Part shown: piece by piece, positions 19,616-27,866 of the stretch
Position numbering within the stretch: the stretch's first letter is position 1
Layout of the letters: each line of letters starts with the position of its first letter
NCBI GenBank assembly: GCA_913057165.1
Contig: CAJXNS010000003.1
Location: forward strand, 1 to 64,000
Reading direction: 5' to 3'
Source: an uncultured Trueperaceae bacterium
Lineage (GTDB): Bacteria > Deinococcota > Deinococci > Deinococcales > Trueperaceae
DNA length: 64,000 nt
The notes under the pieces: model-generated
The model's input: the letters and a program-made list of their open reading frames with translations, nothing else
Databases searched by the model: none
Told to the model about the DNA's origin: nothing
Position numbers and translations under genes: made by a program

Positions 19616-19998
19616 TTGTGGCGGTCGGTCTTGATCTCGTTGAGTTAGACCGCATCCGTTCGGTGCTGGAGCGGCACCGTGAGCGCTTTCTTGCGCGGCA
19701 TTTTGCTCCTGAAGAGATTGCGTACTGCGAAGCGCAGGAGGATCCCATCCCGTCGCTCGCGGCGCGGTTTGCAGCCAAAGAAGCGTTTCAGAAGTGCTGG
19801 CCGCATGCGCACGGTTGGCGTGATGTGTGGGTGCTTCGCGAGGACGGTCGTCCACGCCTGGCGTTCAGCCGCAGCTTGGCGCAGGCCTTACGCGAAAAGC
19901 ATCAGTCAGCCCACTTGTCGCTGACCCACTCGCGGCAGCATGCCGCAGCGGTGGTGGTGTTGGAGGAGCGGGAGCCCGCCGGTTCTCAAGGCGACTGA
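19612..19998 (+). CDS. acpS: holo-[acyl-carrier-protein] synthase
   Basis: Transfers 4'-phosphopantetheine from CoA to the serine of apo-ACP. Family motifs: GLDLVELDRIRSVLERH with the Mg-binding Asp, FLARHFAPEEIAYC, and ARFAAKEAFQKCW with the catalytic Glu. The C-terminus LSLTHSRQHAAAVVVLE is typical. 128 aa. Coupled to rpiA by ATGA and convergent with the CRP gene. Confidence 0.94.
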   Translation: MIVAVGLDLVELDRIRSVLERHRERFLARHFAPEEIAYCEAQEDPIPSLAARFAAKEAFQKCWPHAHGWRDVWVLREDGRPRLAFSRSLAQALREKHQSAHLSLTHSRQHAAAVVVLEEREPAGSQGD

Positions 19999-20026
19999 CG
20001 GGCGAGGCGTTCGGGTCGGCTGGCCG

Positions 20027-20689
20027 TCAGAAATCGTTGGCGATGTCGTCCAAGATTTCCGGTTCCAGCAGCGCGATGCTGCGGTAGGCCGTCCGAATCA
20101 GTCCTTCAACCCGCAGTTGGGTGATGATTTTCGACACGCTTTCCCTGGTGGAGGCGGTGCCTTCGGCCAACAGTTCGTGGGTGGCTGACACGGTGGTCAC
20201 GCCATCGTCGTTTTCGTACGCCAGGGGCGTTTCCGCCAAGGTCAGCAGGTAGCGCGCCACCCGTTGACGTAAGTCGCCCGTCTGCAGGTGGTACTCGTAA
20301 TCAACCAGACGCTGCATTTGATGAGACAGGGATTGGGTGATGTCCATCAGGATCGATCCTGTCAGGCCGGCATGCTCGTACGCTTCGAGTTCCGTTTCGG
20401 TCAGTGCTTCAGCCATTTCTTCGCGGCTTTCACCCGTGAAGGCTTCTTCGCCAAAGTAGTCGCCCGGCAGCACGTGGCGGACCGTCATGATGCGGCCTTC
20501 GGGGGTCATCCGGGTGATACGCACCAGGCCCGAGCGGACGCGGTAGACCGTGGTGGCGTTATCGCCGTGGTGATAGAGGGCGCGCTTGCGGTCGAACTTA
20601 AGCAGCTGGTGTGGCGCGTGCGTGCGGTTCGCGTTGACACCGTTCATGGGTTGCGGACGGACGTTGGTGCGCGTCATGGTGCTGTTCAT
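20027..20689 (-). CDS. CRP/FNR-family transcription regulator beside a LitR-like gene
   Basis: 220 aa. After a polar N-terminus (about 25 residues) comes a cyclic-nucleotide-binding beta-roll (about 30-140: LYHHGDNATTVYRVRSGLVRI, VLPGDYFGEEAF) and a winged helix (about 160-215: RVARYLLTLAET, STRESVSKIITQLRVEGLI as recognition helix). The usual cAMP-contact Arg-Ser/Thr pair after the GE motif is not apparent, and there is no cysteine cluster, so the effector is unclear or absent. SD AGGAG lies 6 nt before the ATG. It follows the LitR/CarH-like gene on the same strand. In Thermus thermophilus a CRP-type regulator (LdrP) sits beside LitR and controls carotenoid genes; this could be a counterpart, by context only. 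Confidence 0.85.
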   Translation of the reverse strand: MNSTMTRTNVRPQPMNGVNANRTHAPHQLLKFDRKRALYHHGDNATTVYRVRSGLVRITRMTPEGRIMTVRHVLPGDYFGEEAFTGESREEMAEALTETELEAYEHAGLTGSILMDITQSLSHQMQRLVDYEYHLQTGDLRQRVARYLLTLAETPLAYENDDGVTTVSATHELLAEGTASTRESVSKIITQLRVEGLIRTAYRSIALLEPEILDDIANDF

Positions 20690-20881
20690 GGGCGGCTCCT
20701 TTCAGGAGCGTGCGTGGGTCGGTGGGTGGGGTGGCCGTAAGCCACCGTCGGATCCCCTAAGACGCGGGTTGCGTCTTCCCTCGCTGGGCGTCAGCCCAAC
20801 GGTCTGCCATTTACGACGGCTGCGGCAACCCACCACCCCCTCTCAAGACCACACGGCTAACGGTTTGAACAAGCCGGCGCA
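20690..20881 (-). other. 192-nt spacer/leader between the LitR-like gene and the CRP gene, with hairpins
   Basis: There is no credible reading frame here. On either strand it can form AAGACGC-GGGTT-GCGTCTT (20759-20777), a perfect 7-bp stem, and a weaker GGTGGC/GCCACC stem nearby (about 20731-20748). Neither is followed by a U-run. It is either the 5' leader of the CRP mRNA or a read-through spacer. No convincing -35/-10 pair was found. Confidence 0.4.
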
Positions 20882-21760
20882 TCATGCGGATACCCCCGCG
20901 GTGCGGACGGCTTGGACCGCGGCGTTGATGGCTTCTTCTAAGTCGCTGCAAATCGTTGCGGCGGACAGGGGCACGTCGTTGATGTCGGCTTCTGCGGGGG
21001 TGGCAGGCATGATGAGTGTCGTCGCCTGACTGGCGTGAAGCGCGTTGGCTGCGGCTGCAGCACCTGCTGGATCGGTCACCAGCACATGCACGCGCGAAGA
21101 GGGCAGGGCGCGAACGGCATGGTCAATGCGTGTCGCGTCATGACCGGCCCCCAGGTAGCGGACACTAAGCCCGCGCCTGCGGAGCAGCACCAGCACCATG
21201 AGTGCGCGGGTGGCACGCCCAACCGGCACGGTGGCCCACACGTCAATAAGGGGGGACCCACCGTTGTGTGGGGCGGCAGCCAGCAGGTTGTGGAGATGAA
21301 GCTCAAGCAGGTGACGCATGCCAGGCTCGCGAGGGTCTTGGTCGTCTGCAGCCGCATCCAATACCGCAAGGGTTGGCTCAAGCAGGCCGGTAAAGACGTC
21401 CAAGACCCCAGCGCTCGCGTGGGCGCGGCCAAGCATGCGTTCCACCTCGAGACCGTCCATGGCCGTCAGCGCATGCATCAAGGCCTCCGGATCCAACGCG
21501 GGGGTTGGGGTGGCCGTGCCGGACAGTTCGTTGGATCCTTCACGCACCAGGGCTGCCGCTCGCGATGCGGGAATGCCGTCGGCGATGAGTTGCTTCATTC
21601 TGTCGATCAGAAGGACGTCGTTTTCGCTGTAGAGGCGGTAGCCGTTGGCCAGGCGTGTGGGGTTTGGAAAGCCGTACCTGCGTTCCCACTGCCTGAGCGT
21701 CCCGGCGGGCACGTGCGTCCGTTCTTCAACTTCGTTGACGGTGAATTTGCCGGTTCGCAT
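20882..21760 (-). CDS. MerR-family LitR/CarH-like regulator, probably cobalamin-free
   Basis: 292 aa. The N-terminal MerR DNA-binding domain (about 5-72) reads FTVNEVEERTHVPAGTLRQW, then ERRYGFPNPTRLANGYRLYSENDV, very close to CarH/LitR. The C-terminal part (about 90-290) has the length and predicted layout of the helical plus Rossmann cobalamin module (MVLVLLRRRGLSVRYLGAG). However, the CarH tryptophan of the W-x9-EH motif is absent and the position of the lower axial histidine (GERHEIG in Thermus CarH) reads VGRATRAL here. ATG 21760 has GGGAGG 4 nt upstream. Three 11-bp operator-like repeats lie in its own promoter. Confidence 0.85.
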   Translation of the reverse strand: MRTGKFTVNEVEERTHVPAGTLRQWERRYGFPNPTRLANGYRLYSENDVLLIDRMKQLIADGIPASRAAALVREGSNELSGTATPTPALDPEALMHALTAMDGLEVERMLGRAHASAGVLDVFTGLLEPTLAVLDAAADDQDPREPGMRHLLELHLHNLLAAAPHNGGSPLIDVWATVPVGRATRALMVLVLLRRRGLSVRYLGAGHDATRIDHAVRALPSSRVHVLVTDPAGAAAAANALHASQATTLIMPATPAEADINDVPLSAATICSDLEEAINAAVQAVRTAGVSA

Positions 21761-21769
21761 GCGCCCTCC

Positions 21770-21802
21770 CTTCGTGCAACGTTTGTACAAGGTTTGTAGT
21801 AG
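21770..21802 (+). repeat. three tandem 11-bp operator-like repeats (CarH/LitR type)
   Basis: Units: CTTCGTGCAAC (21770-21780), GTTTGTACAAG (21781-21791), GTTTGTAGTAG (21792-21802). The second and third agree at 9 of 11 positions, and the first and second at 7 of 11. The middle unit contains TGTACA, fitting the TnTACA core on an 11-bp period known for CarH/LitR operators. The array lies between the -10 box and the Shine-Dalgarno of the MerR gene, so binding would block its own transcription. Confidence 0.65.
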
Positions 21803-21830
21803 GTTACGCCTCTTGGCCGCCCAATGTCAA
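21801..21830 (-). promoter_or_regulatory. promoter of the LitR-like gene
   Basis: On the minus strand TTGACA (21830-21825), an 18-nt spacer and TAACCT (21806-21801). It is the best -35 box in the window, and its -10 touches the first base pairs of the 11-bp repeat array. Confidence 0.65.
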
Positions 21831-21912
21831 GCATTTTCAGTACCTATGTCACAGCCACCTGGTACCCGTGACCTGGTTACCGCGGGGTTTTTGAGGGGGT
21901 AACCTTCAACAC

Positions 21913-22377
21913 GTGACCTCACGTAAACGCATCCAAGCCTGGACCGACGGCTCGTGTGAAACCCAAACCGGCGATGGTGGCTGGGCGTACCTGCTGCGCC
22001 ACAACGGCCACGAACTCAGCGAAGCCGGTCACGAAACCGGCACGACCAACAACCGCATGGAGCTCACGGCCGCCGTGAAAGCCTTGGCCTCCCTGACCGA
22101 AGCATGCGACGTCACGCTGACCACCGACTCGCAGTACCTCAAAAAGGCGTTCACCGAAGGCTGGCTGACACGGTGGTTACGCAACGGATGGCAAACCGCT
22201 GGGCGTGAGCCCGTCAAAAACCAAGACCTATGGCAAGAGTTGCTGGTGCTCACCGAGCGCCACCACGTTGAATGGCGCTGGACCCGCGGGCATAGTGGGC
22301 ACAGCGAAAATGAGACGGTCGACAAGCTCGCGCTCGATGCCCGCAAACGCCAGCAACCGTTCAAATCCAGGTCGTAA
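21913..22377 (+). CDS. rnhA: ribonuclease HI
   Basis: Cleaves RNA in RNA-DNA hybrids such as R-loops and primers. Active-site carboxylates: Asp in AWTDGSC, Glu in NNRMELTAAVKAL, Asp in LTTDSQYLKKAF, and the final Asp in ENETVDKLA. The basic handle (LTRWLRNGWQTAGREPVKN) and WRWTRGHSGHSENE are also present. 154 aa, normal. The GTG at 21913 lies 7 nt behind TAACCT (21900-21905) and no Shine-Dalgarno is present, so the mRNA is probably leaderless. Divergent from the LitR-like gene. Confidence 0.96.
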   Translation: MTSRKRIQAWTDGSCETQTGDGGWAYLLRHNGHELSEAGHETGTTNNRMELTAAVKALASLTEACDVTLTTDSQYLKKAFTEGWLTRWLRNGWQTAGREPVKNQDLWQELLVLTERHHVEWRWTRGHSGHSENETVDKLALDARKRQQPFKSRS

Positions 22378-27162: not shown

Positions 27163-27866
27163 ACTTCTTGGTTTTGGTCTTCGAGGTACGCCTCGAGTCG
27201 ACCCACATCCACACTGATTGGGGTACGACGCCGCCTGACCGCACCGAACTCAAGCAGTTGCGCGAGGCAGTGGCTGACCGTTTCGCGCGTCGCACCGATC
27301 ATTTTGGCGTAGTCGTTTTGTGTGAGGCCAAGGTCCACGACCACACCGCGCTCGGAAGGCTGACCAAAATCGTTGGCGAGCCTCAGGAGCAGGTTCGCAA
27401 GGCGCGCGGGCGCATCGAACGCCCCAACCTCTGCCTGCCACTGTTGCGCCTGCCAAAGGCGGGTGGACATCACCTGAATAAACTTCATGGCGATCCTTGG
27501 GTGCTTTTGTAAGAGCGTCTGAAAGTCATCTTCGGGCATGACAATTAACGTCGTATCGGTGACGGCTTCCGCTTGGTTCGGGCGACGTTCGCTCGGCAGG
27601 AGCAGCAGCTCACCGAAAATGTCGTACTGACCCAGCAACCCTAGGATCATCTCTTTGCCGTTAGGGAAGTACATCGAGACCTTCACCATGCCGTCACGAA
27701 CGAAGTACAAGGCGTCGGCGGGATCCTCCATACGATAGATCGCCTCGCCCGCCTCGAAATGACGGTACGGCGTGATCTTTGACACCTGTTCAAGCTCTGC
27801 GTCGCTTAAGTCCTCAAAAAGTTGGGTGTTCTTGAGGTGCCACACCAGGCTTGGGTACTCGGTCAT
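27159..27866 (-). CDS. CRP/FNR-family transcription regulator
   Basis: 235 aa. Beta-roll effector domain about 12-130 (LFEDLSDAELEQVSKI, RMEDPADALYFVRDGMVKV, LLGQYDIFGELLLLP), dimer helix about 135-160, then a winged helix with LTQNDYAKMIGATRETVSHC as the helix-turn-helix. The Arg-Ser/Thr pair that contacts cAMP in E. coli CRP is not present after the GE motif, and there is only one cysteine, so neither cAMP nor an FNR cluster is indicated. ATG 27866 lies 9 nt behind TACACT (27881-27876). Convergent with the antiporter gene. Confidence 0.9.
   Translation of the reverse strand: MTEYPSLVWHLKNTQLFEDLSDAELEQVSKITPYRHFEAGEAIYRMEDPADALYFVRDGMVKVSMYFPNGKEMILGLLGQYDIFGELLLLPSERRPNQAEAVTDTTLIVMPEDDFQTLLQKHPRIAMKFIQVMSTRLWQAQQWQAEVGAFDAPARLANLLLRLANDFGQPSERGVVVDLGLTQNDYAKMIGATRETVSHCLAQLLEFGAVRRRRTPISVDVGRLEAYLEDQNQEV

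Follow-up and report, generated by a model that had tools for sequence, protein, structure and literature searches.

Layout of the locus

The window analyzed here is a whole stretch of 64,000 nt from an uncultured Trueperaceae bacterium (GCA_913057165.1, contig CAJXNS010000003.1, positions 1–64,000; genome G000). The features under study all lie on its minus strand and are listed below in the direction of transcription.

21825–21830, minus strand: −35 element TTGACA, assigned from sequence; a TTGAC-type −35 occupies the matching place in the relatives' carH promoters
21801–21806, minus strand: −10 element TAACCT, 3/6 matches to TATAAT, 18-nt spacer; same hexamer in the relative L013
21794–21804, minus strand: operator unit 1, ACCTACTACAA, pseudo-repeat with one mismatch, overlapping the −10
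21783–21793, minus strand: operator unit 2, ACCTTGTACAA, perfect to nnnnTnnACAn
21772–21782, minus strand: operator unit 3, ACGTTGCACGA, pseudo-repeat with one mismatch
21765–21770, minus strand: Shine-Dalgarno GGGAGG, assigned from sequence
20882–21760, minus strand: CarH/LitR-like MerR-family gene, 292 aa, ATG at 21760
20690–20881, minus strand: spacer of about 190 bp separating the carH-like gene from the ldrP-like gene (24–309 bp on the same strand in relatives)
20027–20689, minus strand: LdrP-like CRP/FNR regulator gene, 220 aa, best NCBIfam family LdrP (score below its cut-off); order and strand as in relatives

On the gene strand, TTGACA is followed by 18 bases, TAACCT, three adjoining 11-bp units (21772–21804), AAGGGAGGGCGC, and the ATG. 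The earlier note had reported three contiguous 11-mers, which are present, but its register was two bases off, and the minus strand gives the better reading of the units. The plus-strand core it proposed, TTnGTnCAA, fits two of its 11-mers but not the third (GTTTGTAGTAG). It had also described a strong promoter with the repeats lying between this and the Shine-Dalgarno; the −35 is perfect, with 18 nt to the −10, but the weak −10 makes "strong" an overstatement, and the repeats, while reaching the Shine-Dalgarno, cover four bases of the −10 through unit 1. An automatic scan did not call this promoter, passing over it because the −10 is weak. At the corresponding place, L013 has TTGACT with the identical TAACCT.

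Published CarH operators follow the consensus nnnnTnnACAn in 11-bp direct repeats, the run overlapping the −35 or −10, and imperfect "dr" repeats are permitted within them (PMC9304148; PMC8156234). Scored by this consensus, the site is dr-DR-dr, with a perfect middle unit and flanks of one mismatch each, and it overlaps the putative promoter via the −10. The deviation of two of the three units from the consensus counts against the operator reading. An Rfam search around 19900–22000 found nothing credible. A lone half-site-like sequence, CTTGTTCAAAC, with no 11-bp partner, occurs at 20860–20880, just past the carH-like stop and before the ldrP-like gene.

Conservation and genomic distribution of the repeats

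A whole-genome search identified protein relatives in 52 of 81 genomes, including G000; the named ones belong to uncultured Trueperaceae and Truepera. The relatives' carH upstream regions carry a like site over the promoter. Across 26 such regions, we counted 25 consensus pairs with their units exactly 11 bp apart, compared with 0.18 in dinucleotide shuffles (maximum 2), and at most six pairs at any other spacing from 6 to 24 bp. A perfect unit adjoining a unit with no more than one mismatch was present in 24/26 regions, versus a mean of 3.0 in shuffles; conservation upstream of orthologs, the absence of which the earlier note would have taken as refutation, was thus found.

Within the window, the site is the sole triple with one perfect unit and no more than two mismatches on both strands (128,000 strand positions). 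A weight matrix trained on 24 relatives' carH upstream regions, with the window left out, ranked it first as both a two-unit and a three-unit match; its three units totaled 32.3 bits, whereas the best place elsewhere reached 7.1. The training regions were picked for lying ahead of carH, and refinement of the matrix favored tandem pairs; a fair test therefore comes from the shuffles and from the left-out window. A 33-position sequence model built from 17 relatives' sites identified one place in the window, the operator (E = 0.00035), and in the whole genome (1.78 Mb) one match at E ≤ 1, the carH-like promoter (E = 0.01). A chance origin in an AT-richer promoter would suit the imperfection of the flanking units and the general frequency of short two-copy repeats; the window-free profile, the window and genome E-values, the unique triple, and the shuffles refute this at the sequence level and leave it a negligible probability. 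The three repeats are thus predicted to bind a CarH-type protein at the promoter of the regulator's own gene, as the earlier note had proposed: the consensus fit, the relatives' profile, and the excess of 11-bp pairs all agree with an operator of this period and family.

The wider regulon that the earlier note foresaw is not supported in G000. Apart from the carH-like promoter, the sole profile match at E ≤ 1, genome-wide scans for exact, one-mismatch, and two-mismatch tandem patterns gave nothing above reversed controls. The 11-bp-spaced units that it suggested seeking near carotenoid and photolyase genes were absent from the crtB/crtI-like and main photolyase loci; two further photolyase-family places lie outside this set, on contigs C79 and C4. 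Weak sites may be overlooked, since even among the carH promoters of the relatives themselves the profile picks up only a portion.

When the relatives were scanned with the operator model, genes for secreted proteins with a single FAS1 (fasciclin) domain emerged in several genomes. Family searching and a tree then delimited one FAS1 clade in which 9 of the 10 members have a tandem site no more than 260 bp upstream, a count made after the first three cases had been seen, against none of the 14 FAS1 genes outside it; across 120 kb of other loci, no place reached the site threshold. At the Trueperaceae loci L282 (1284–1305), L271, L273, L274, L281, L272, L285, L270, and L268, the operator lies roughly 100–215 bp upstream of these short secreted FAS1 genes. 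It is weak in the clade member from G012, and in G010 FAS1 and carH diverge from one common intergenic region. Secreted FAS1 proteins are therefore likely CarH targets in relatives. We considered and rejected FAS1 as a target in G000, whose two FAS1 genes have no site and do not belong to the clade that bears the operator. The algal FAS1 protein AstaP binds carotenoids, while a cyanobacterial homolog did not (PMC10147662); that the operator-linked FAS1 proteins might do so is speculation. In genome G013, a second CRP/FNR gene has the operator ahead of it (L233, around 550–592; AGCTTATACAAAGCTTGTACAA, 33.7 bits).

The regulator protein and cobalamin

The closest NCBIfam model to the carH-like protein is CarH (1.6e-23, 83 bits), although the score is far under the equivalog cut-off of 400 bits, and the closest solved structures, both by sequence and by fold, are those of Thermus CarH. 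Its MerR domain (PF13411, 9.5e-14) retains LRQWERRYGFP, which includes the RxWERRY recognition helix. The first 75 residues share 64.5% identity with the relatives, versus 68.2% among the relatives themselves, whereas the C-terminal part shares 21% versus 45%.

Both B12 motifs are gone from this diverged part. The D/ExHxxG motif with the cobalt-ligating His is replaced by VGRATRAL where relatives show DQHELGAL, the upper-face Wx9EH motif is absent from the aligned stretch, and the inter-helix turn bearing it is shortened. Pfam detected no B12 domain in the protein, while genus-mates show both. The implied loss of B12 light sensing had not been foreseen in the earlier note. A frameshift artefact was rejected as the source, because the alignment runs through to the end of the frame and the predicted fold is confident. 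The AlphaFold model (41 sequences) has a mean pLDDT of 88.5, with both the helix bundle and the Rossmann elements preserved. The predicted C-terminal four-helix bundle and Rossmann part match CarH cobalamin-domain structures with target-normalised TM-scores of up to 0.74; against full-length CarH, the model scores only about 0.5, partly from domain orientation.

The rest of the genome points in the same direction. B12-binding domains (PF02310) were present in 40 of the 41 genomes searched, G000 being the sole exception, and a cobalamin riboswitch was found in 36 of the 41, with none in G000; because the assembly is 95% complete in 106 contigs, these absences are not absolute. B12 use has likely been lost in G000, judging from these searches for B12-binding domains and cobalamin riboswitches. 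The regulator might still be a cobalamin-dependent photoreceptor if a divergent B12 site had escaped the motif searches and cobalamin came from outside, and the predicted CarH-type C-terminal fold is compatible with this. However, the missing ligating His and Wx9EH, the shortened turn, and a genome with neither detected B12-binding domain nor riboswitch make such a receptor very unlikely. From its sequence, the regulator is probably a B12-blind CarH ortholog acting on an inherited operator.

In a full-length CarH tree, the protein forms a very long branch beside G010 (support 0.5) and not among its genus-mates, while in the LdrP tree the neighboring LdrP-like protein groups with genus-mates (support 0.73). 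Because the CarH placement is weak, vertical orthology leans mainly on synteny and the LdrP tree. In the CarH orthologs at L022 and L017 (G009 and G024), Wx9EH is partly lost and the D/ExHxxG His motif is intact. Erosion of the site therefore extends beyond G000, and these orthologs are possible intermediate steps toward losing light sensing. A second MerR_1 protein of G000 is encoded by a 142-aa frame on contig C10.

The fast-diverging C-terminal domain, the two imperfect repeats, and the reduced genome could also describe a decaying regulator whose operator persists by descent as a functionless relic. We regard this as improbable: the gene has an unbroken reading frame, conservation of its DNA-binding domain matches that in functional relatives, the structural model is confident throughout, and the repeats remain the best site in the genome.

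Proposed operon control and known systems

The second gene of the locus encodes a protein whose best family is NCBIfam LdrP (1.4e-59, 201 bits, below the equivalog cut-off of 300 bits). Wherever an ldrP-like gene was found beside carH in relatives, it lay downstream on the same strand, 24–309 bp away, and this arrangement suggests that the two genes likely share a transcription unit in G000. A further CRP/FNR-family gene at 27225–27761 (minus strand) is remote from LdrP (29% identity, E 9.7e-10).

It is quite probable that the repeats are the operator of the neighboring CarH/LitR-like repressor, which has lost its B12 site, most likely binds without B12, and controls its own operon. The conserved MerR domain would read the tandem 11-bp repeats, and a protein seated over the −10 and early transcribed region would block RNA polymerase. 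The carH-like gene, and probably the ldrP-like activator gene with it, would thereby be held at a set level. The autorepression predicted in the earlier note is strongly supported by the placement of this operator on the gene's own promoter. In relatives, the bound state depends on adenosylcobalamin, and light disrupts it. With the B12 site gone along with every detectable genomic B12-binding domain, the G000 repressor would most likely bind without the cofactor, either keeping the operon under constant control or responding to a partner protein or some other ligand.

G000 retains crtB and a crtI-like gene behind ispG, plus photolyase-family genes. At L047 (133–3764, contig C5), ispG-like, crtB, and crtI-like genes stand in a row, with no CarH-type tandem site. 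On the simplest reading, the repressor would govern its own operon, and any effects on carotenoid or photolyase genes would, by extrapolation from Thermus, run via the LdrP-like activator.

Light control could outlive B12 if a separate light- or redox-sensing partner derepressed the regulator. Precedents exist in the class II LitR of Pseudomonas mendocina, released by a short LOV protein (PMC9758184), and in Myxococcus CarA, released by CarS (PMC8156234, PMC9304148), and the retention of crtB and photolyase-type genes would fit. Against this, no partner gene was identified at the locus, where only the ldrP-like gene is adjacent; we consider such a partner rather unlikely, though a more serious contender than a relic operator or a hidden cobalamin site.

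How a B12-free, self-controlling repressor might have arisen is more speculative. We give roughly even chances to a history in which this Trueperaceae lineage abandoned B12 and CarH persisted as a B12-independent autoregulator, its regulon reduced to carH–ldrP and the FAS1 target lost. Constraint would then have preserved the operator and the DNA-reading domain during erosion of the photosensor pocket, and the C-terminal fold may have been turned to a different signal. If true, the locus is a natural experiment on a photoreceptor-repressor outliving its cofactor. The operator model is applicable across the Trueperaceae.

The nearest known counterpart is Thermus thermophilus CarH/LitR (PDB 5C8E), which shares the MerR domain with its LRQWERRY recognition helix, the CarH-type C-terminal fold, three tandem 11-bp repeats over a sigma-70-type promoter, and an adjacent ldrP-like gene. 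In contrast to that system, the G000 regulator has no B12 motifs, its operator covers part of the −10 but leaves the −35 clear, and crtB is not adjacent, lying behind ispG on another contig. In T. parvatiensis, the carH promoter has a tandem pair that includes the −35. The uncultured Trueperaceae CarH orthologs (L173, L177, and others) have the same gene order with ldrP and the same type of own-promoter operator, but keep both B12 domains and a second target, the FAS1 gene.

Myxococcus xanthus CarA, a B12-independent CarH paralogue, indicates that, in principle, CarH-type repeats can be read without B12. CarA is encoded beside carH and keeps its B12-binding motif, the Trp of Wx9EH being missing (PMC9304148); in G000, unlike in this CarS-released paralogue, the single carH-like gene has itself lost the B12 site. 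Class II LitR proteins (Pseudomonas PplR1 and PmlR2) are likewise LitR-family repressors that are not B12 photoreceptors and have TGTACA-type promoter sites. In them the four-helix domain alone remains (PMC9758184); the G000 regulator is predicted to have the Rossmann part as well. Their spacing, T(G/A)TACA-N12-TGTA(C/T)A, was tried and rejected for this site, as the TGTACA at 21784–21789 has no partner 18 bp away. B12-independent relatives are therefore already known in CarA and class II LitR; what is new here is an apparent CarH ortholog without a B12 site whose operator is intact.
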